From Kordiimonadaceae bacterium (GTDB taxonomy: Bacteria > Pseudomonadota > Alphaproteobacteria > Sphingomonadales > Emcibacteraceae), in contig JABGYD010000049.1 in assembly GCA_018675425.1 (NCBI GenBank), positions 1-63,395 of the forward strand: DNA of 63,395 nt, read 5' to 3'. Numbering within the stretch: the first letter of the stretch is position 1; each line of letters starts with the position of its first letter. The position numbers were made by a program, and so were the translations under genes. The notes beneath the pieces are model-generated. The model was not told the origin of the DNA. It did no database searches and saw only the letters and a program-made list of their open reading frames with translations. Of this stretch, positions 14,133-55,874 are shown piece by piece.

Positions 14133-14184
14133 TTATTAAGAATCGTTATTAAAAAAAGACGCCTTATTAAGAACTATTATTAAG
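14133..14184. repeat. Two imperfect 21-base direct repeats at the parB 3' end
   Basis: A unit beginning TTATTAAGAA and ending TTATTAA occurs at 14133-14153 and again, with a few changes, at 14164-14184. The second copy overlaps the parB stop codon. The units are AT-rich and could be replication slippage or a protein-binding array; no function is assigned. Confidence 0.5.
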
Positions 14185-15105
14185 TTTTAAACAAATATCA
14201 TCAAGCTGTTCGAGAGTTTTATAATGCACTTTTAAGGCACCCTCTTCCCCACCCCTCAACTCAAGCTCAACCCTTAAACCAATGGCCGCTGAGAGCTCTC
14301 TTTCAAAGACTTTAGTATCTGCATCTTTATGATGATTAATTTTTAATTTACTATTAGTGTTTTTTACTGCATTGCCCTTAAGCCCCCTTGCCAATTGTTC
14401 CGTTTTGCGAACGCTAAGGTCATCCCGCACGACCCGCTTCGCTAACTCAAGGGGGTTTACAGCAGTAATAAGGGCTCGGGCATGCCCCATGCTAATTTTC
14501 CCTCCTCGCATCAAACTCTGAACTCCCTCGGGTAAAGAAAGTAGCCTCATCATATTAGCAATATGACTTCTGCTTTTACCAACGGCTTGACCCAGGGCGT
14601 TTTGAGTGTGAGCAAACTCCTCCATTAAGCGTCGATAGCCCATAGCCTCTTCTATAGGATCTAAATCATGGCGTTGAACATTTTCTATAATGGCAATTTC
14701 CAAAGATTCTTCATCGTTCATTTCCTTAATAACTACGGGCACCTGATGAAGTCCCGCGACCTGAGCGGCACGCCAGCGCCTTTCACCTGCCACAATTTCA
14801 TATCTATTTTTCCCTCGCGGGCGGACCAATAATGGCTGCAAAATTCCCTTTTCTTTTACCGACGCAATAAGATCTTTCGCCTTATCTTCATCAAAAAACA
14901 TTCGGGGCTGATAGGTGTTGGCAACTAGAAACTCTATAGGTACTTCTTGATTCGAGCTTAGGCCCGCTGGCCTTAAAACTTTTCCGCCAACATTATCATA
15001 TGCGGCTTCACCCGTATTCATTAACGAGGATAGTCCCCTTCCTAGGCCTTTTTTAGAACCACGCGATTTTTGTATGCCTTTTGATACTTTTTTAATTTGA
15101 TCCAT
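14167..15105 (-). CDS. parB: Chromosome partitioning protein ParB (CTPase clamp)
   Basis: 312 residues. GLGRGLSSLM occurs near the N-terminus. The ParB/Srx CTP-binding domain follows, with NTYQPR, GERRWRAAQ (the CTP-binding GERRxRA motif) and IIENVQRHDLDPIEEA. Next comes a helix-turn-helix (LGQAVGKSRSHIANMMRLLSLP) that reads parS, and a C-terminal dimerisation domain. ParB loads at parS, slides as a CTP-dependent clamp and works with ParA to segregate the origin. Two parS sites lie close by, at 16561 and 18619. It lies 36 bases downstream of parA. Confidence 0.97.
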   Translation of the reverse strand: MDQIKKVSKGIQKSRGSKKGLGRGLSSLMNTGEAAYDNVGGKVLRPAGLSSNQEVPIEFLVANTYQPRMFFDEDKAKDLIASVKEKGILQPLLVRPRGKNRYEIVAGERRWRAAQVAGLHQVPVVIKEMNDEESLEIAIIENVQRHDLDPIEEAMGYRRLMEEFAHTQNALGQAVGKSRSHIANMMRLLSLPEGVQSLMRGGKISMGHARALITAVNPLELAKRVVRDDLSVRKTEQLARGLKGNAVKNTNSKLKINHHKDADTKVFERELSAAIGLRVELELRGGEEGALKVHYKTLEQLDDICLKLNNSS

Positions 15106-15141: not shown

Positions 15142-15960
15142 TTATCTTTCAATTTTTTCTTGCTTACGCCGCCTTAAAAATTCCGCCGCCAAGGCGATAT
15201 AGGCTTGGCTTCCCGTACATTTTAAGTCGTAGAGGATCGCCGGTCTCCCATGAGAAGGCGCTTCAGAAACACGAACGTTTCGCGGTATCACCGTCTTGAA
15301 AACTTTGCTGCCAAGGTAGTTTCTTACATCAATAGCCACCTGCTCAGATAAATTATTTCTATTATCAAACATCGTCAATACAACGCCGCCAATCTCAAGG
15401 TCTGGATTGAAATTCGCCTTAACGGTTTCTATCGTCTTCAAAAGCAGGCTTAACCCTTCAAGCGCAAAAAACTCACATTGCAATGGGACAAGGACCATAT
15501 TAGCTGCTGCTAATGTATTGAGGGTAATTAGATTTAGTGACGGCGGGCAATCAATAAGAACATAATCATAATTTTCCAAAACTGGGTCGCGAAATGCACG
15601 CCGAAGCTTAAAGGTGCGTTGCTCGGCGTCCACAAGCTCAAGCTCCGCCCCTGTCAGATCAATGGTTGATGGCACGAGATGAAGGCCCGGCACAACCGTA
15701 TCAATAATCGCTTCCGCCAGTGGGGCCTCGCCCATTATAACCTCGTAACTACTTTTTTGGCGGTCACTCCGGTCACAACCAAGTCCTGTGCTGGCATTAC
15801 CCTGCGGATCCATATCTATAATCAGAACATCTCTTTTCGTCGCGGCAAGCGCTGTAGCAAGGTTTATTGTTGTGGTTGTTTTACCAACCCCGCCTTTCTG
15901 ATTGGCAACGGCGATGATTTCTGGCTGACGACTTGCGACAGATAAATCACTAAATAACAT
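15142..15960 (-). CDS. parA: Chromosome partitioning ATPase ParA
   Basis: 272 residues. It has the deviant Walker A KGGVGKTTT near residue 22, DMDPQGNASTG, and the DCPPSLNLITLNTLAAA region. ParA forms nucleoid-bound ATP dimers that move ParB-parS complexes. The short N-terminus before IIAVANQKGG is typical of chromosomal rather than plasmid ParA, which usually carries an N-terminal helix-turn-helix. It lies 21 bases after rsmG in the mnmG-rsmG-parA-parB order common in Alphaproteobacteria. Confidence 0.97.
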   Translation of the reverse strand: MLFSDLSVASRQPEIIAVANQKGGVGKTTTTINLATALAATKRDVLIIDMDPQGNASTGLGCDRSDRQKSSYEVIMGEAPLAEAIIDTVVPGLHLVPSTIDLTGAELELVDAEQRTFKLRRAFRDPVLENYDYVLIDCPPSLNLITLNTLAAANMVLVPLQCEFFALEGLSLLLKTIETVKANFNPDLEIGGVVLTMFDNRNNLSEQVAIDVRNYLGSKVFKTVIPRNVRVSEAPSHGRPAILYDLKCTGSQAYIALAAEFLRRRKQEKIER

Positions 15961-15981: not shown

Positions 15982-16623
15982 CTATTTTTCTTTTTTTGTC
16001 CTGGCCTCTACTTCACTTAACAAAAGAATTACTCCTGATCGATCACTCTTACTAGGGAATTTTTTAACCCCAAAGCATCTTTTTTTCTCTGCCAATAAAA
16101 GTTCATTTTCTACATTTTTACCTTTTAAAAACAGACACTTGGTTGCTGGCTTAATAAATTTTTCTGTAAGATCAAGCAACTTATTTAAATCGGCACAGGC
16201 CCGTGAAGTTATAAGGTCAACTGGAAAAGCCGCTAAGTCTTCGATTCTTTTATTATAAACAATAGCATTAATGTCAGTTTGTTGAATAATTTGTTTCATA
16301 AAAGAACATTTTTTTCCGACACCCTCAACTAAGATTACTTCCCCCAGGCCAAGTATAGAAAGCACTAATCCAGGAAACCCCGCACCACTGCCAAGGTCAA
16401 GTATTTTGAGGGGCTTATCTGTTCTTGTTATATAACCTGAGAGTTGCGCGCTATCATAAAAGTGTCTAAGCCACATATTAGGTAGTGTACTATTACTTAC
16501 TAAATTTATAGATTTTTGCCACTTAGTCAGCGTCTCTGAATATAAAACAAGTTTATCCATAGTTTCACGTGGAACACCCGTTAGCTCCTGAAACTCATTT
16601 GCCGTCATATTATGACCCATCAA
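15982..16623 (-). CDS. rsmG: 16S rRNA (guanine-527-N7)-methyltransferase RsmG
   Basis: 213 residues. [12 protein letters not shown] leads into the SAM-binding motif [17 protein letters not shown], followed by [13 protein letters not shown] and [14 protein letters not shown], as in GidB/RsmG proteins. It methylates G527 of 16S rRNA, and loss of RsmG is a known route to low-level streptomycin resistance. Its start overlaps the mnmG stop (ATGA). A parS-like site (16561-16576) sits inside its 5' coding part. Confidence 0.96.
16561..16576. other. parS: parS centromere site (15 of 16 bases), inside rsmG
   Basis: AGTTTCACGTGGAACA; its complement is TGTTCCACGTGAAACT, one base from the common bacterial parS sequence TGTTCCACGTGAAACA. 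It lies in the 5' coding part of rsmG, 1.5 kb from parB and about 9 kb from the candidate origin, where ParB-binding sites are expected. Confidence 0.85.
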
Positions 16624-18618: not shown

Positions 18619-18634
18619 TGTTTCACGTGAAACA
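18619..18634. other. parS: parS centromere site (perfect 16-bp palindrome)
   Basis: TGTTTCACGTGAAACA is a perfect palindrome matching known chromosomal parS sites, including those of Caulobacter. It sits in the gap between mnmE (stop at 18644) and mnmG (start 18506), 3.5 kb upstream of parB and about 7 kb from the candidate origin. It is almost certainly the main ParB loading site in this window. Confidence 0.95.
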
Positions 18635-20200: not shown

Positions 20201-20209
20201 TTATCCACA
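20201..20209 (+). promoter_or_regulatory. Perfect DnaA box upstream of ogt
   Basis: TTATCCACA is an exact match to the consensus DnaA box. It is isolated, 60 bases before the ogt start and 5 kb from the candidate origin. It may regulate ogt or titrate DnaA; a chance occurrence cannot be excluded. Confidence 0.6.
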
Positions 20210-20268: not shown

Positions 20269-20736
20269 ATGGCACAACTATCGATACACAGCCCTATAGG
20301 GGATCTCACAATAAGCGAAGAAAACGATAAACTTGTGTCCTTAGATTGGGGCTGGTCACCATTTCAAAAAAAGACGCCATTATTGATGGAAGCAAAAAAA
20401 CTATTGGATTATTATTTTGATGGGGACAACCCAAAATTCGATTTGCCTTTAAATCCCCAGGGCACCCCCTATCAAAAAAAAGTTTGGCAAGAAATCTCTA
20501 TTATCCCGTACGGTAAATTTTTAACATATAGTAATATTTCTGAAAAAATAGATTCGCACCCCCGCTCAATTGATATGGCATGTGGAAAAAATCCGTTGCC
20601 TATTCTTATACCCTGCCACAGGGTTATTGGAAAAAAGGAACAGCTTACAGGCTTCTCTGCCGTAGGGGGAATAGAGACAAAAAAGTTTCTTCTTCAATTA
20701 GAGGTGCCTAATGTTTACTTTAATATTTTCAATTAA
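20269..20736 (+). CDS. ogt: Methylated-DNA-protein-cysteine S-methyltransferase
   Basis: 155 residues. The C-terminal domain shows the active site IPCHRVIG with acceptor Cys116, preceded by YGKFLTYSNIS and followed by TGFSAVGGIETKKFLL, all diagnostic of O6-alkylguanine-DNA alkyltransferases. It removes alkyl groups from guanine by suicide transfer to its cysteine. It is the only rightward gene in the stretch between the suf operon and the origin, and it converges on nhaC with a 12-base gap. It has a helical DNA-binding segment but no Ada regulatory domain. Confidence 0.95.
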   Translation: MAQLSIHSPIGDLTISEENDKLVSLDWGWSPFQKKTPLLMEAKKLLDYYFDGDNPKFDLPLNPQGTPYQKKVWQEISIIPYGKFLTYSNISEKIDSHPRSIDMACGKNPLPILIPCHRVIGKKEQLTGFSAVGGIETKKFLLQLEVPNVYFNIFN

Positions 20737-20748
20737 AAGAATGCTAAT

Positions 20749-22212
20749 CTATTCTACAAAAACCTCATCTGGATTTATTGGGTAAATTTTAAAGTTATAA
20801 ACACCATACAAAACTGACGTGATTGGACTAATTAAGTTAAAGAAGCAGTATGGCGCATATGCAAAAGTGGAGACGCCAAGCGCGCTAGCAAAAAATGCCC
20901 CGCATGTATTCCAAGGCACCAAGACTGAAGTTACGGTACCAGTATCTTCTAGGGCCCTAGACAGATTTTTTGCAGCAAGGTTCCGCCGCTTAAACTCTAA
21001 CCTGTACATCCGCCCAGGAAGTACAATTGCAATATATTGGTCTGCCGCTAAAATATTAACTCCTATGCATGTCAAAGCAGTAACGAATATGAGCGAGCCA
21101 GTAGTATGTGCCATCCCAATCAATCCAATTACCAGCCTTTTTAAAAGCCCGAGCTTTTCCATGATAGACCCAAAGGTAATCGCACACATAACAAGCCATA
21201 TGGTATCCATCATACCGGCCATACCGCCCTGACTTAATAACTCATCCATTTGTAAGTCGCCTGTATTTGCAGAGAAACCAGCGAAAAGCGCCCTCCATAT
21301 TCCGTCAAGTATTGCGATGATATCGCTACGCCCCCCAGCTTCAGCAAACTTTATAATAACATCTGCCTGAAAAATAACGGCCATTGCAATCCCTACAACA
21401 GTGCCAATAACTAAGGTAGGAAAGGCTGGGTTCTTTTTAACGGCAAGAACAAAAACAACCAGCAGGGGTAAAAACAAATAAACCCCTATGGTAAAGTTAT
21501 TTTCAATGAGAGTAAGTTGACCGCTCAGGTCAACGTCAACCGAGCTTATATCGCTAGAAAGGCCAAGAATAAGGTAGATAACTATTGCTATGCTGATGGA
21601 AGGTATTGTAGTCCACGTCATGTGGCGAATATGTGTAAAGAGATCAGTTCCTGCAACGGCTGGCGCAAGATTTGTCGTGTCTGAAAGTGGCGACATTTTA
21701 TCGCCAAAATAGGCCCCAGAAATAATCGCGCCTGCAGTTATTTCTGGCTCTAGCCCGAGGCCTGAAGCAATCCCCATTAATCCAACACCAATTGTGCTGG
21801 CAACCGTCCAACTGCTTCCTATGCTAATAGCAGTAACCGCGCTTAAGATACAGGCAGTAAAATAGAAAAACGTAGGGTTAAGTATTTGAAGGCCATAATA
21901 AATCATAGCGGGGACAGTTCCAGAAATTATCCAAGAACCAATGAGCATACCAACAGCCATAAGGATAAGAATAGCACCGTATGTATTGGCAATCCCTTGA
22001 GTGATCGCCTTTTCAATATCTAGCCATTTATGACCATTTTTTACACCAATAATTAGTGCAATGCTGCCTGCCATAATAAGGGCTATTTGATTTGCGCCAC
22101 CTGACGATCCGTCTCCATATAGATAAACAGAAAGACTAAGCATGCTAACTAAGGCAATAACTGGCGTTAACGCATCAAGTAAGCTTGGTTCGCGCAGCTC
22201 AGAAGTAGACAT
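20749..22212 (-). CDS. nhaC: NhaC-family Na+/H+ antiporter
   Basis: 487-residue integral membrane protein with about a dozen hydrophobic segments. NhaC-family landmarks include IGVKNGHKWLDIEKAI, SIGSSWTVASTIGVGLMGI, the conserved motif GAYFGDKMSPLSDTTNLAPAV, and a C-terminal half with LVPWNTCGAFFASALGV. It would exchange sodium for protons across the inner membrane. A marine or saline habitat is suggested but not shown. The ATG has an AGGGA sequence upstream. It lies downstream of rho on the same strand with a 100-base gap. Confidence 0.93.
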   Translation of the reverse strand: MSTSELREPSLLDALTPVIALVSMLSLSVYLYGDGSSGGANQIALIMAGSIALIIGVKNGHKWLDIEKAITQGIANTYGAILILMAVGMLIGSWIISGTVPAMIYYGLQILNPTFFYFTACILSAVTAISIGSSWTVASTIGVGLMGIASGLGLEPEITAGAIISGAYFGDKMSPLSDTTNLAPAVAGTDLFTHIRHMTWTTIPSISIAIVIYLILGLSSDISSVDVDLSGQLTLIENNFTIGVYLFLPLLVVFVLAVKKNPAFPTLVIGTVVGIAMAVIFQADVIIKFAEAGGRSDIIAILDGIWRALFAGFSANTGDLQMDELLSQGGMAGMMDTIWLVMCAITFGSIMEKLGLLKRLVIGLIGMAHTTGSLIFVTALTCIGVNILAADQYIAIVLPGRMYRLEFKRRNLAAKNLSRALEDTGTVTSVLVPWNTCGAFFASALGVSTFAYAPYCFFNLISPITSVLYGVYNFKIYPINPDEVFVE

Positions 22213-24259: not shown

Positions 24260-25312
24260 CTATCTTCTATAGTTTAAAATGATATCAGAAACTAATTTCA
24301 CATTTTCAGTTGGGGTTTGGGGTATAATACCATGACCAAGGTTAAATACGTGCCCCCCGTCTTTTAAGTGGTCAAGAATGTGATAAACGGCTTTCTCCAG
24401 AGCAACGCCACCACTGACTAGCAAGAGAGGGTCTAGATTGCCCTGAACAGTACAAAGTGGTTGAATAGTGCTGCGAACCCAAGACGTTGACATTGATGTG
24501 TCAATGCTAACAGCTGTAACCTTTGTTTTTTTGATATAGTTCTTTAGTTTCGCACCGGCACCCTTTGGAAAACCAATGATTGGTATATTAGGATAAACTC
24601 TTCTGATATTTTCAATAATTTTTTGCACAGGCTCTACACACCAAGTAATAAACTCGTCTGCTGGGAGAGATCCAGACCAACTATCAAATATCTGTAACGC
24701 CTCCGCCCCATGATCCACTTGTTTGATTAAATATTCAGACGTAGAATTAATCAGAAGATCAATAAGTTTTGAAAATGTTTCTCTATCTTGATAAGCCATC
24801 AGTCTTGTTTCAGCTTGGTCTTTGGAGCCGCGGCCGCCCACCATATAAGTAGCGACGGTCCAAGGAGCACCCGCAAATCCAATCAAAGTAACTTCAGTTG
24901 GCAGCTTTTTTGATAGATTAGAAATTGTTTGATAAACAGGACTTAAATGGTCATGCATACCGTCCATAGAAAGCGCGTCTAATGTCATAATATTGTTAAC
25001 GGGCGTTAAAACGGGACCTTCGCCTTTCCTGAAAGCCAACTCTTGTCCCAACGCGTGCGGAATTACGAGAATGTCTGAAAACAATATAGCAGCATCCATA
25101 TTAAATCGTTTTAGTGGTTGAAGTGTAACTTCTGTAGCAAACTCTGAATTATAGGCTAAATCTAAAAACGATCCTGCTTTTTCTCTAAGTTTCATGTATT
25201 CTGGTAAATATCGTCCTGCTTGTCTCATAAACCAGAAGGGTACTCTCTCAGTTATTTCACCATTTAATGCTCTTATCAGTAATTTGTCATTGCGTATTTT
25301 TTTATTGGTCAA
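24260..25312 (-). CDS. hemE: Uroporphyrinogen decarboxylase
   Basis: 350 residues. It shows PFWFMRQAGRYLPEY, the ILFSDILVIPHALGQ segment, GFAGAPWTVATYMVGGRGSK and GNLDPLLLVSGG, covering the catalytic pocket. It decarboxylates uroporphyrinogen III to coproporphyrinogen III. The only sensible start is a TTG at 25312, because no in-frame ATG occurs before Met29. The bases just upstream of this TTG, which should serve as ribosome-binding site, coincide with a DnaA box at the edge of the candidate origin. Confidence 0.97.
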   Translation of the reverse strand: MTNKKIRNDKLLIRALNGEITERVPFWFMRQAGRYLPEYMKLREKAGSFLDLAYNSEFATEVTLQPLKRFNMDAAILFSDILVIPHALGQELAFRKGEGPVLTPVNNIMTLDALSMDGMHDHLSPVYQTISNLSKKLPTEVTLIGFAGAPWTVATYMVGGRGSKDQAETRLMAYQDRETFSKLIDLLINSTSEYLIKQVDHGAEALQIFDSWSGSLPADEFITWCVEPVQKIIENIRRVYPNIPIIGFPKGAGAKLKNYIKKTKVTAVSIDTSMSTSWVRSTIQPLCTVQGNLDPLLLVSGGVALEKAVYHILDHLKDGGHVFNLGHGIIPQTPTENVKLVSDIILNYRR

Positions 25313-25697
25313 AATAGTTATCCACGGGTTTTACTACTTAAATTACTTAAATATATAAGTATTGTAGTTGTTAGTAGGTCCTATGAAAAGCAAGGATTAA
25401 ATATTATCAACAGGATGTACCATATTTATTAACAAGAGTTTATATATATTCTTCTTTGATATAAAGATAAGAAATATCTCTGTTAACCTAGTGTTTACAT
25501 ATCTGGAATTTTAACAAAAAGCTAGAAACTTTGTTATAGTTAAGTTGTAGTAAAACCGTAAGAATTAATTTATTAACAGGTTAGGCCATTAGGTATTAAA
25601 AATGAATTAGGGAGATAAAAAACAAAAGTATTGAAAATAAAGCTATTTATCCCCACTATTCACGTAATTAAATCGTCCAAGGCGAGAAAAGATTTAA
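25313..25697. other. oriC: Candidate chromosomal replication origin (oriC) between hemE and ppsR
   Basis: This 385-base AT-rich gap separates divergent hemE and the PpsR (RP001-type) gene. In Caulobacter and Rickettsia the origin occupies the same gap between hemE and RP001 homologues. DnaA-box-like sites on the plus strand are TTATCCACG 25318-25326, TTATCAACA 25404-25412, TTATTAACA 25426-25434 and 25570-25578, and TTATCCCCA 25647-25655. A very AT-rich stretch around 25435-25490 could be the unwinding element. I saw no GANTC and no clear spaced TTAA-N7-TTAA CtrA site. Gene direction switches here from mostly leftward to rightward. Confidence 0.82.
25318..25326 (+). promoter_or_regulatory. DnaA box overlapping the hemE ribosome-binding region
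   Basis: TTATCCACG differs from the consensus DnaA box by its last base. Read on the minus strand it is CGTGGATAA, ending six bases before the hemE TTG start and containing the only GGA-like ribosome-binding sequence. DnaA bound at this site could affect hemE expression. Confidence 0.6.
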
Positions 25698-26519
25698 ATG
25701 ACAAAACTTCACCTTCATTTGGTTTCCGATTCTACCGGGGACACCCTTGAGCAGGTGGCTAAGGCCTCATTGGTTCAATTTCCTGGAATAGAGCCTATAA
25801 AACACTACTGGCCAATGATTAGGACGCCACGCCACATGGAGCGCCTTATCACAGAAATGAAAAATAACCCGGGCATTGTCATGTTTACTCTGGTAGACCA
25901 TGAAATAGAAAAAGTTTTGATTGATTCATGTAAAAAAAATAAGTGGCGCTATATTTCTGTTCTTCATGGTATAATTCAGGAGCTTGGCCGGCACCTAGGT
26001 AGGGCTCCTACCGAACGACCCGGACTTCAACACCAGATGGATCGGGCATATTTTGAACGTATTGATGCCATTGAATACACTCTTGCTCATGACGACGGAC
26101 AAATATCTAACGGATTGTCTGAAGCAGATATAATCTTGGTTGGCGTATCTCGAACGTCCAAAACACCGACCTGTATTTATCTGGCTAACCGTGGCTATAA
26201 ATCAGCCAATACACCAATTATTTCCGGCCACCCACTCCCGCTGGAACTCGAACAATGCAAGGGAAAGTTTATTGTGGGCCTTGTTAACAGTGTTGATCGG
26301 CTGGTCCAGATCCGAAGAAGTCGACTTCTCATGTTAAATGAAGACAGAACCACAGACTATGTGGACGAAGAGCGGGTAAAACAAGAGGTCAGAGAAGCGC
26401 GCCATTTGTTTAACAGAATGGGGTGGCCTATTGTTGATGTAACTCGTCGGTCTATTGAAGAAACTTCTGTTGCGATTGTTAACCTCAAAAACAAATATGA
26501 CGAAGGAAAAGCGGAATGA
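25698..26519 (+). CDS. ppsR: Pyruvate phosphate dikinase / PEP synthase regulatory protein (DUF299)
   Basis: 273 residues. It shows HLVSDSTGDTLEQVAKA at the N-terminus, the P-loop GVSRTSKTPTCIYLA and VNSVDRLVQIRRSRL, all typical of the DUF299 family. These proteins are ADP-dependent kinases and phosphate-dependent pyrophosphorylases that inactivate and reactivate pyruvate phosphate dikinase or PEP synthase. The Rickettsia homologue, RP001, borders that organism's origin, as here. The stop overlaps the aroE start by four bases (ATGA). No dikinase gene is in the window. Confidence 0.95.
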   Translation: MTKLHLHLVSDSTGDTLEQVAKASLVQFPGIEPIKHYWPMIRTPRHMERLITEMKNNPGIVMFTLVDHEIEKVLIDSCKKNKWRYISVLHGIIQELGRHLGRAPTERPGLQHQMDRAYFERIDAIEYTLAHDDGQISNGLSEADIILVGVSRTSKTPTCIYLANRGYKSANTPIISGHPLPLELEQCKGKFIVGLVNSVDRLVQIRRSRLLMLNEDRTTDYVDEERVKQEVREARHLFNRMGWPIVDVTRRSIEETSVAIVNLKNKYDEGKAE

Positions 26520-27358
26520 GTAGTTCTGACCTAAAAGTTGTCGGTGTTGTTGGCGATCCCATATCCCATAGCCTATCCCCCCGCTTGCACTCTTATTGGT
26601 TGAAAAAATATAATATCCCGGGTGAGTATGTACCATTTCACATAACTAAAAACGAACTACCAGGCTTTATTGCGAGCATAAAAGGCAATAATATCATGGG
26701 GCTTAATTTAACTGTTCCGCATAAAGAAAGTGTTATAACATTAATCGATGAGGTGGACGCATCAGCAAAAAAAATAGGTGCGATCAATACTATTTACTTT
26801 GATGATAAGAATAGAACAATCGGCTCTAATACAGATGGGCATGGTTTTCTAAAACACCTCAAAAGCTCTTCATTGGCCTGGAGGGCAGATAATAGCTCTA
26901 CTGCTATAATTGGTGCAGGTGGCGCAGCGCGCGCAGCTATTGTTAGTTTACTCGATGCCGGCGTTCCAGAAATAAGGCTTATTAATAGGACCCAGGAGCG
27001 GGCCGTTAATTTAGCGGGCACAATTGATGATATTAGGATTAAGGTAACTTCTTGGGATCATCGTGAAGAAGCCCTTGTAGGGATTAAACTTCTAGTTAAT
27101 GTAACAACCCTGGGTATGGTAGGCCAACCCCCGCTTGAGCTGTCTCTGGATAAATTACCAAAAGATGCAACGGTTTATGATATTGTTTATAATCCTATTG
27201 AGACCGAACTTATCAAACAAGCTCGTGCGCGCGGGAATAAAACGGTAGATGGGCTTGGCATGTTACTTCATCAGGCGGCAGCTGCATTTAAGATTTGGTT
27301 TGGGGTCGATCCTGAAGTAGATGAGGGCCTAAGAAACCATGTGCTTAAGGCCCTGTAG
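26516..27358 (+). CDS. aroE: Shikimate dehydrogenase (NADP+)
   Basis: 280 residues. The substrate-binding start is GDPISHSLSPRLHSYW. GLNLTVPHKE contains the catalytic lysine, and NTDGHGFLKHL and the dinucleotide-binding GAGGAARAAI follow. It reduces 3-dehydroshikimate in the aromatic amino-acid pathway. It overlaps ppsR by four bases and its stop directly abuts the coaE ATG. Two other shikimate genes, aroK and aroB, lie 7.8 kb to the right. Confidence 0.97.
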   Translation: MSSSDLKVVGVVGDPISHSLSPRLHSYWLKKYNIPGEYVPFHITKNELPGFIASIKGNNIMGLNLTVPHKESVITLIDEVDASAKKIGAINTIYFDDKNRTIGSNTDGHGFLKHLKSSSLAWRADNSSTAIIGAGGAARAAIVSLLDAGVPEIRLINRTQERAVNLAGTIDDIRIKVTSWDHREEALVGIKLLVNVTTLGMVGQPPLELSLDKLPKDATVYDIVYNPIETELIKQARARGNKTVDGLGMLLHQAAAAFKIWFGVDPEVDEGLRNHVLKAL

Positions 27359-27940
27359 ATGATAACTATTGGCCTTACTGGATCCATCGGCATGGGGAAA
27401 ACTGAAACAGCAAAGTGTTTTGCTCGAAAGGGCGTGGTTGTTTTCGACAGCGATTTATGCGTTCACAAACTTCTAGGTCCTCAGGGAGGCGCGGTTGACG
27501 AGGTCGAGCACGCTTTTTCTGGCGTACAAAAAGAAGATTATATTGATCGCAAAATACTTGGTGCGCGGGTTTTCGGGAATGATAATTCTCTGGAAGTGCT
27601 TGAGAAAATTTTGCACCCATTGGTTGTTAAAGAACGTGAAACTTTCATTAAAAATGCAAAAGCAGACATAATTCTTTTTGATATCCCACTTTTATTTGAA
27701 AATGGATATGAGAATGATTTCGATTATATTGTTGTTGTCTCTGCATCCGCAGAAGCTCAAAAAAAACGTGTGTTGGAACGCTCGGGAATGACGAAAAAAA
27801 GATTTAAAGAAATACTTGCAAAACAGTCCTGTAATATCAATAAAGCTGCCATGGCCGATTTTATTATTCAAACTGACCGTGGCTTTGACTATGCTGAAAA
27901 ACAAGTTGTAGACATAATAAAACAAATTAGGAAATATTAG
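27359..27940 (+). CDS. coaE: Dephospho-CoA kinase
   Basis: 193 residues. It has the P-loop GLTGSIGMGKTETA, FDSDLCVHKLLG (substrate-binding aspartate region), HPLV and DIPLLFENGYE, the typical CoaE set. It phosphorylates dephospho-CoA in the last step of CoA synthesis. It is packed with no spacer between aroE and dnaQ (stop TAG then ATG on both sides), so all are surely one transcript. Confidence 0.97.
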   Translation: MITIGLTGSIGMGKTETAKCFARKGVVVFDSDLCVHKLLGPQGGAVDEVEHAFSGVQKEDYIDRKILGARVFGNDNSLEVLEKILHPLVVKERETFIKNAKADIILFDIPLLFENGYENDFDYIVVVSASAEAQKKRVLERSGMTKKRFKEILAKQSCNINKAAMADFIIQTDRGFDYAEKQVVDIIKQIRKY

Positions 27941-28618
27941 ATGCGTGAAGTAGTTTTTGATACAGAAACGACAGGTTTTGACCCCTTTAACGGCGACCGC
28001 GTTGTGGAAATTGGATGTGTTATTGTTGAGGACTATTTGCCTACTACCGAAGTATACCACACTTATATAAACCCTGAGCGGGACATGCCCTCATCAGCAG
28101 AGCAGGTTCACGGCCTTTCGGAAGAATTTCTTAAAGGCCATCCGACATTTAGTGAAATTATAGCGGACTTTAGGGATTTTTGTGGGGATATGAAGTTAGT
28201 TGCTCACAATGCTGAGTTTGATATGAAGTTTATTAATTGGGAAATGAAAAACCTTGGCTTTACCGTCTTTCCAGCGAGTAGAGCGGTTGATACTCTTTCA
28301 ATAGCAAGACGCAAATTTCCAGGTGCAAGCAATACCCTTGATGCGTTATGTAAAAGGTTTTCTATAGACAACTCTAATCGGGTCAAACATGGAGCCCTGC
28401 TGGATGCCGAGTTATTGGCAGAAGTATACTTGGAGTTAATGGGAGGTAGACAAACGGGGTTCGGGCTGGCTTCTGAGGGGAGTAATATTGAGACGGTGGG
28501 CCCGGAGGCACCAATAGAAAAAATACGAAGAACACCGCGGCCCCACAGCGCAAGCCAGGAAGAGCTAGATAGTCATAAGGCTTTTATTAAAACTATCGAA
28601 AACTCTCTCTGGGATTAG
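27941..28618 (+). CDS. dnaQ: DNA polymerase III epsilon subunit (3'-5' proofreading exonuclease)
   Basis: 225 residues. The DEDDh exonuclease motifs are present: FDTETTGFDP (ExoI), HNAEFDMKFINWE (ExoII) and HGALLDAELLAEVYLELMGGRQ (ExoIII with the catalytic histidine). The C-terminal tail (last 45 residues) lacks similarity and would bind the alpha subunit. It is the last gene of the ppsR-aroE-coaE-dnaQ unit, and a strong hairpin terminator follows within 11 bases. Confidence 0.96.
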   Translation: MREVVFDTETTGFDPFNGDRVVEIGCVIVEDYLPTTEVYHTYINPERDMPSSAEQVHGLSEEFLKGHPTFSEIIADFRDFCGDMKLVAHNAEFDMKFINWEMKNLGFTVFPASRAVDTLSIARRKFPGASNTLDALCKRFSIDNSNRVKHGALLDAELLAEVYLELMGGRQTGFGLASEGSNIETVGPEAPIEKIRRTPRPHSASQEELDSHKAFIKTIENSLWD

Positions 28619-54620: not shown

Positions 54621-55874
54621 GTGGCGCGGCTTCAACCGGTACGTGGAACACATGACATTCTAGGTGAAATGTCTCTAAGATTTCGCACTATTTTTGAAAT
54701 TTTTAGATCTGTGGCGGAACGATACAGCCATGAGCAAATAGACACGCCTATATTTGAGTTTACCGAGACATTTAAAAAAACACTTGGCGATACTTCTGAC
54801 GTTGTAACTAAGGAAATGTATACATTTGAAGATCGAGGCGGAGAACAGGTCACGTTGCGTCCTGAATTTACTGCTGGGATTGCCCGCGCCTTTATATCTA
54901 ATTGCCTGCAGCAATCTACTCCGTGTAAATTTTATAGTTTTGGGCCGACATTTCGTTATGAGCGGCCTCAAAAAGGGCGGATGAGGCAATTCCATCAAAT
55001 GGATATAGAAATTATTGGGGTTGCTGAAGCTCAAGCGGATATAGAAGTCCTTGCAATTGCTCAAGACCTTTTGAATGAACTTGGCATAGCAAAGCACGTC
55101 ACGTTGGAGCTCAATAGCCTTGGCGATCGAGAAAGTCGTATGAATTATCGCGCCGCACTGGTGCAATATTTTTCACAACATCGAGATAAGTTGAGTAAAG
55201 ATAGCCTTACCAGACTTGAAAAAAATCCCATGCGAATACTTGATAGTAAAGATGAAGGGGACCATTTACTAATAGAAAAAGCTCCGCGTATTAGCGAATA
55301 CTATAATGATACTAGCAAAGTATTTTTTTCTGAAGTTAGAGAAGGACTGGAAGGGCTTGGTATAGATTACCACATAAAGGATCGCTTGGTTCGCGGTCTT
55401 GATTATTACTGTCATACAGCCTTTGAATTTACAACAGATCAACTTGGTGCGCAGGGTACCGTGCTTGCGGGGGGTCGATACGATGGTTTGGTCGAAATGA
55501 TGGGAGGGCCAAGAACACCTGGAGTTGGTTGGGCGTCAGGAATGGAGCGAATGGCGGAACTAATCACCTATGATATTATTAAAAAGCAGGTTCGCCTAGT
55601 GGCTATAGTACCAGTCGGGGATAAATCTCATACGACGGCCATGAAGATTGCTCATGATTTACGAAAAGCTGGTATTGTGGTTGATATGGCCTACAAAGGA
55701 AACGTCGGAAAGCGCATGAAACGTGCTAATAAACAAAACGCTCGGTTCGCCATTTTAATTGGTGAGGATGAAATTGTACGTTCTGTTGCTATGGTTAAAA
55801 ATCTTGATAAGGGAAGCCAGGAAGAAATTTCTTTATTAAAGCTTGTGGATTATCTGAAAGAAAATAAATTATGA
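54621..55874 (+). CDS. hisS: Histidyl-tRNA synthetase
   Basis: 417 residues from a GTG start with AGGAGA six bases upstream, giving the usual N-terminus [12 protein letters not shown]. Class II motifs are [30 protein letters not shown] (motif 2) and the histidine-binding [13 protein letters not shown], then [13 protein letters not shown]. The anticodon domain occupies the last 95 residues. It charges tRNA-His. The stop overlaps prfA by four bases. Confidence 0.97.

Follow-up and report, generated by a model that had tools for sequence, protein, structure and literature searches.

The question raised by this locus is whether a short gap between two divergent genes is the place at which the chromosome of an Emcibacteraceae bacterium begins to replicate and, if so, where the DNA would open and whether CtrA would gate the event. 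The window, i.e. the whole stretch of 63,395 bases that was analysed, is the entire contig C30 of the source genome G000 (2.20 Mb, 94 contigs, 99.6% complete). A first-pass annotation had proposed a candidate origin between hemE and ppsR (RP001 type), in a 385-base, AT-rich, divergent gap. Size, composition and flanking genes of the gap were checked and hold; gene setting, skew of the window, skew minima of relatives and conserved boxes all agree with the proposal. The gap and the genes around it are as follows.

25313 to 25697, no strand: predicted oriC, an AT-rich gap between the divergent hemE and COG1806 genes, which is also present in relatives
24260 to 25312, minus strand: hemE, uroporphyrinogen decarboxylase (TIGR01464, 401.5 bits, cut-off 302.95; the TTG start is uncertain)
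25698 to 26519, plus strand: COG1806/RP001-type (PpsR-type) gene, pyruvate phosphate dikinase/PEP synthase regulator (PF03618, E 4.6e-91)
26516 to 28618, plus strand: aroE, coaE and dnaQ in that order, gene calls right of the gap
14167 to 15105 and 15142 to 15960, minus strand: parB and parA, respectively, gene calls in the window
18619 to 18634, no strand: parS-type palindrome TGTTTCACGTGAAACA, an exact match just upstream of gidA

Because the TTG start codon of hemE is uncertain, the left edge of the gap may move slightly. By AT content the gap stands out clearly: the value is 73.8%, compared with 53-67% in 1-kb bins of the window and 60% for the surrounding locus (L002). Left of hemE lie the gene of a UPF0093 protein and rho, farther out gidA, gidB, parA and parB; right of the gap, secB follows beyond dnaQ on the opposite strand. 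An O6-methylguanine methyltransferase gene (20269-20736) and a Na+/H+ antiporter gene (20749-22212) separate the gid-par genes from rho. The nearby parS sites and parAB genes that had been annotated were recovered as well: in addition to the exact palindrome at 18619, which matches what we take to be the parS consensus, a parS-like site with two mismatches occurs at 16561, within gidB near the gene start.

According to PMC1914354 (excerpt), the oriC regions of Caulobacter and Rickettsia are placed between hemE and COG1806 orthologs, in agreement with the setting that the annotation had named for both. The same excerpt lists as marks of an origin the adjoining hemE and/or COG1806 orthologs, an intergenic region of more than 300 bases with several DnaA boxes, an AT content higher than the genome average and a number of sites that no other intergenic region of the genome equals. 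Here, both genes flank a gap of 385 bases, which contains three sites at one mismatch and two at two mismatches. These putative sites, predicted by scoring the sequence with the DnaA box consensus TTATCCACA, are the following.

25318 to 25326, plus strand: DnaA box A, TTATCCACG, one mismatch; it faces the AT-rich core, and TTATnCAC is found here in 12 of the 12 genus rows reaching it
25404 to 25412, plus strand: DnaA box B, TTATCAACA, one mismatch; unrecognisable in row L011
25426 to 25434, plus strand: DnaA box C, TTATTAACA, two mismatches; placed in the genus alignment
25570 to 25578, plus strand: DnaA box D, TTATTAACA, two mismatches; it reads TTATCCACA in three genus rows
25647 to 25664, plus strand: DnaA box E, TTATCCCCA, one mismatch, starting at 25647 and followed by a TATTCA block

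The five positions and the common strand are exactly those annotated before, and none of the boxes matches TTATCCACA perfectly. When the gap was shuffled 2000 times with its dinucleotides preserved, 0.25% of the shuffles had five same-strand sites at up to two mismatches, 1.1% had five when either strand was allowed, and 0.05% had three at up to one mismatch. At least five same-strand sites at up to two mismatches per 385 bases were also seen at 27145-27393 (five) and 55616-55844 (six), both on the minus strand; these loose clusters are probably due to chance. Three sites at up to one mismatch in 385 bases were found within the window only at the gap (48 of 63010 window starts, from 25271 to 25318). 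The sole perfect TTATCCACA of the window lies at 20201, with a one-mismatch site 380 bases off.

Conservation was assessed by means of a genus alignment of 13 rows, of which row L011 is partial and lacks the left end. The mean top-base frequency is 0.88 for the 67 box columns, whereas it is 0.65 for the 318 others. The order of elements is box A, AT-rich core, TAG-rich stretch, inverted boxes, and then boxes B, C, D and E with the TATTCA block; the rows diverge between boxes C and D, where part of the sequence is missing from some of them. Box E is the place of TTATCC in 13 of 13 rows, of TTATCCCC in 12 of 13 and of TATTCA in 11 of 13. Single rows are without single boxes, e.g. L011 without box B.

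A minimum of GC skew, as used to locate bacterial chromosome origins, lies at this place in the window and at the orthologous gap in three closed relatives. The annotation had named, as the check to be made, a minimum at about 25.5 kb in the cumulative skew of the complete genome; for the window, a single contig of a 94-contig assembly, the cumulative minimum is at 25277. Most genes are directed away from the gap, and this orientation alone biases the skew; four-fold degenerate sites were therefore split by gene strand in order to part replication bias from gene-direction bias. For plus-strand genes the skew changes from -0.284 left of the gap (190 G+C sites) to +0.008 right of it (1418), and for minus-strand genes from -0.018 (1094) to +0.261 (525). 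The shift is about +0.28 in either gene strand, which corresponds to about 4 to 5 standard errors as estimated from the site counts; as it goes the same way in both, a switch of the replication strand explains it and gene direction does not. Note that the minimum of the pooled four-fold sites lies at 28114, 2.4 kb right of the gap; thus, this measure locates the switch only to a few kb.

The closed relatives were G012 (same genus), G014 and G015 (both same family). From each, 20 near-evenly spaced stretches of 20 kb and then finer stretches were taken; the stretches L199 and L200 of G012 were left out of the skew analysis. Each chromosome has one positive and one negative skew half, and all three minima lie within 0.3 kb of the orthologous gap: at 3288717 in G012, about 0.14 kb inside the COG1806 gene (3288039-3288857); at 4099335 in G014, about 0.26 kb inside hemE (COG1806 gene at 4097799-4098611); and, in G015, 693 bases ahead of the record start, about 0.24 kb inside hemE, which itself begins some 457 bases ahead of that start, with the COG1806 gene at about base 54-60. 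The fine profile of G012 is uneven, some 10-kb bins on either side being near zero. The gap of G015 contains six DnaA sites at up to one mismatch, two of them perfect.

Judging from composition, gene setting and conservation, we are highly confident that the gap at 25313-25697 is the chromosomal origin (oriC) of this Emcibacteraceae bacterium. The predicted origin is of the already known alphaproteobacterial hemE-COG1806 type, and as such it is ordinary and well supported. Among the records listed, from which very near ones may be omitted, the COG1806 protein is 89% identical to that of 'Emcibacteraceae bacterium isolate RIS_SAG_07', and the nearest named ones are metagenome-assembled genomes labelled Emcibacteraceae and Kordiimonadaceae. 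The placement of the origin gives a replichore map for a genus that is represented here mostly by metagenome assemblies.

Where the DNA would open can be judged from two further elements.

25330 to 25385, no strand: conserved AT-rich core, the probable DNA-unwinding element, with TAG/CTA (DnaA-trio-like) repeats (genus alignment, stability, repeat polarity)
25384 to 25401, minus strand: place of the genus's tandem inverted DnaA boxes; L005 has TAATCCACA TTATTCACA, G000 the weaker TAATCCTTG CTTTTCATA

In a stability scan of 25 gaps, which left out L026, the least stable 40-bp window lies in the hemE-proximal core in 23 cases; the exceptions are G000, where the core comes second (dG -38.7 vs -37.9 for the stretch from 25439), and L030, where there is a tie. 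The AT-rich stretch at 25435-25490 that had been annotated does exist in the gap, but it is not conserved in relatives; their conserved AT-rich element corresponds to about 25330-25385, beside hemE, and the relatives lend no support to unwinding at 25435-25490. One may suppose that the origin is here and that opening nevertheless begins in this species-specific stretch beside box C, as it contains, by a small margin (-37.9 vs -38.7), the least stable 40-bp window of this species. We regard this as rather improbable: several genus rows (e.g. L005, L010, L012, L013 and L014) lack most of the stretch, while the hemE-proximal core holds the least stable window in nearly all gaps scored and is the site of the inward-facing boxes and trio-like repeats of the relatives. 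The stretch is thus real but probably not the shared opening site of the family.

With the core at 25330-25385 as the probable unwinding element, its borders and repeats deserve a closer description. Relatives have one or two minus-strand boxes at the right edge of the core; these inverted boxes, which are missing from the first-pass list, are weak in this species, and both G000 and its sister L003 read TAATCCTTG CTTTTCATA. On the other side, box A TTATCCACG matches eight of the nine consensus bases here, compared with seven in nine other genus rows with a finder match. Within the core, CTA dominates the left half and TAG the right half. Summed over 22 of the 26 rows from genus and family, CTA exceeds TAG by 19 in the left half, where 2000 shuffles gave a mean of 2.0 and a maximum of 12, and TAG exceeds CTA by 46 in the right half, where the shuffles gave a mean of 20.8 and a maximum of 37; both signs occur together in 14 of 22 rows (shuffled mean 3.7, largest 10), where the rows are related and the counts hence not independent. 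Omitted from this count were L013, L017 and L022, whose box A scored below 7/9, and L030 with a wrong edge; in the case of L013 the finder missed a box A that is visible in the genus alignment. For 62 other alphaproteobacterial gaps the automatic edge finder gave no right edge in 14 and a plainly wrong one in some (e.g. L092, L097), and these totals were not used.

A DnaA-trio pattern was defined as a DnaA box, a spacer of up to 16 and at least three contiguous, GAT-rich trios. In its loose form it was found in 19 of the 19 gaps tested, with six hits in this gap, and is therefore not discriminating. The version that demands two GAT trios matched three of the 19, namely L003 and L027 (both at box A) and L025 (minus strand), and is absent from this gap. 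A literature search on DnaA-trios in alphaproteobacteria turned up only work on Epsilonproteobacteria, as far as the text of the sources was available, and one on the replication origin of Emcibacter returned nothing. We propose, as a tentative and on the whole unlikely model, that Emcibacteraceae possess a two-sided module: DnaA boxes on either side of a single AT-rich core, facing inward and each followed by trio-like repeats on its own strand, would guide DnaA filaments to opposite strands, so that two helicases could be seeded symmetrically. The species studied here seems to have lost ctrA and chpT; in it and in its sister, the boxes on the COG1806 side are weakened and box A is the best consensus match among the genus rows, and the dominant opening side might thus have switched. 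If true, a two-sided core would bear on the loading of two helicases in opposite directions.

As for control by CtrA, the scan of the gap agrees with the earlier statement that it contains no GANTC and no clear CtrA-type site: exact TTAA-N7-TTAA sites number zero, and four sites have one mismatch. The absence of GANTC says little, because 47 GANTC in the window of 63395 bases let one expect only about 0.3 per 385 bases. An exact CtrA site is present in one of 11 other genus gaps (L010) and in none of 14 family gaps; GANTC is present in one of the former and, once or twice, in nine of the latter. Hence 24 of these 25 gaps are without an exact site, whereas four of six Caulobacteraceae control gaps have three or four and two have none. 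Sites at one mismatch number 0 to 4 per genus gap, and sister L003 has none. The genus and family counts refer to L002-L031 only (L032 onwards repeat some genomes of L003-L031) and were made without L011, L015 and L023, which have no hemE on the locus. An exact match to what we assume to be the IHF consensus was not found in the gap; the window has seven, compared with a mean of 6.06 by chance. PMC1914354 (excerpt) names CtrA and IHF sites among the origin criteria, neither of which the gap has in exact form, and yet accepts origins of E. ruminantium without CtrA sites; in PMC4433202 (excerpt), the chromosomal origin of S. meliloti is without CtrA motifs and not bound by CtrA. Because of these two precedents, such sites were not treated as defining.

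The gene ctrA itself was identified in G012 (on L252), where the NCBIfam CtrA model scores 413.9 bits (cut-off 350) and the nearest solved structure is named CtrA. Of the 60 genomes searched, with G000 included, 50 have a CtrA match of at least 72% identity, and so do six of the 13 genus members. G000 has no ortholog-level match (best E 6.7e-21), in spite of its 99.6% completeness. Matches to the CtrA query number three in G000, compared with 18-31 in other genus members, and PF00486 matches number two, compared with 4 to 12; the half-complete G011 has two and none, respectively. The two PF00486 matches of G000 are one full regulator, which is below cut-off in the best 25 NCBIfam matches listed and which we take to be similar to ChvI, and one 58-residue open fragment. 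This fragment, with a PhoB-like DNA-binding domain, lies at L131 (G000:C39:53241-53393) and is apparently the remnant of a lost response regulator. The first PF00486 matches examined as possible CtrA were rejected; by eye they resemble regulators that we presume to be of the PhoB and FeuP type. Moreover, chpT (PF10090) is missing in four of 31 genomes and cheR (PF01739), which adjoins ctrA in G012, in six of 13 genus members, G000 being among them in both cases. GcrA (PF07750) is present in G000, and so is a CcrM-like methylase with a RAMA domain (NCBIfam CcrM 627.8 bits, below the cut-off of 830).

With ctrA, chpT and cheR all missing at this completeness, a loss of ctrA in G000 is likely, and the gene content suggests that the CtrA arm seems to be lost and the CcrM-GcrA arm kept. 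In G001, G006 and G010, which keep chpT, the absence of ctrA may reflect assembly gaps. A single loss in the genus was considered and rejected: on a DNA tree of 16 loci (four of 13 inner branches starred) six changes are needed, the starred branches force at least three, and 500 of 500 shuffles do as well, so that a single loss is not supported. The available part of PMC8116508 yielded no passage on the loss of CtrA.

With no exact site in the gap and no ortholog-level ctrA found, i.e. without the marks of a CtrA-gated, Caulobacter-type origin, CtrA is unlikely to gate this one. One could argue that CtrA or a stand-in still represses the origin through near-consensus sites, ctrA having been missed through assembly gaps; the four one-mismatch sites, the 94-contig assembly and a ctrA absence scattered over the genus tree, as expected from gaps, would fit. 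This is very unlikely, as genus gaps contain anywhere from none to four near-consensus sites and the sister has none, exact sites occur in 0 of 14 family and one of 11 other genus gaps compared with three or four in four of six Caulobacteraceae gaps, and G000 lacks chpT and cheR along with ctrA and has only two PF00486 matches. Since relatives that keep ctrA are also without exact sites, their absence is the norm of the family and not a mark of this species, and a loss of ctrA need not alter this origin directly. The earlier suggestion that initiation control may differ from Caulobacter therefore stands in so far as exact sites and ctrA were not found, but the absent sites are shared with ctrA-bearing relatives. 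The apparent lack of CtrA, which controls initiation in the best-studied relative, seems to be the only surprise. It invites a comparison of ctrA-bearing relatives with those in which ctrA was not found, as the origin is built alike in both groups and hardly ever contains an exact CtrA site; G000, for its part, retains gcrA and a ccrM-like gene.

The location of dnaA bears on a last alternative. In G000, dnaA is on contig C83 and not on the contig of the window. In the closed relatives it is at base 67 (G012), base 55 (G014) and base 329010 (G015), i.e. about 81, 90 and 329 kb from the skew minima and in positively skewed sequence; in these three the origin is thus not beside dnaA. DnaA can also regulate promoters, and a divergent promoter region would likewise be short and AT-rich; that the gap is only such a region for hemE and the COG1806 gene, with the real origin elsewhere, e.g. 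beside dnaA, could further appeal to the loose box clusters at two other places of the window, but is extremely improbable, given that the skew is lowest at the gap both in the window and in G012, G014 and G015, that dnaA lies far off in these relatives and that the box columns are conserved.

For the origin at 25313-25697, location and box architecture are backed by sequence, and from these we infer DnaA binding, opening and firing. DnaA would bind box A and boxes B-E, perhaps also the weak inverted boxes, and would open the hemE-proximal, AT-rich core at about 25330-25385, where the helicases would be loaded. The left fork would then pass through hemE, rho, gidA and parAB and the right fork through the COG1806 gene, aroE, coaE and dnaQ, with CtrA unlikely to act as a gate.

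Compared with known systems, the predicted origin shares with that of Caulobacter crescentus the flanking genes, an AT content above that of the genome and DnaA boxes (PMC1914354, excerpt). It differs in having no exact CtrA site, where four of six Caulobacteraceae gaps have three or four, and no ctrA found in the genome; its DnaA sites at up to one mismatch number three, compared with 0-1 in the six Caulobacteraceae gaps. The origins of Rickettsia have the same hemE and COG1806 (RP001) flanks and nearly the same length, 383-396 bases in four species compared with 385 here, but are richer in AT, with 81.5-82.8% (PMC1914354, excerpt) vs 73.8%. The origin of Sinorhizobium meliloti is likewise without CtrA motifs; this species, however, has ctrA (PMC4433202, excerpt), which G000 appears to lack. 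Finally, as in the basal unwinding system of Bacillus subtilis, which consists of DnaA boxes plus DnaA-trios (PMC8287927, excerpt), DnaA boxes adjoin an AT-rich core whose TAG/CTA repeats have a set polarity. Unlike in that system, the two-GAT-trio pattern occurs in three of 19 gaps and not in this one, and the relatives of G000 have boxes facing inward from both sides of the core.
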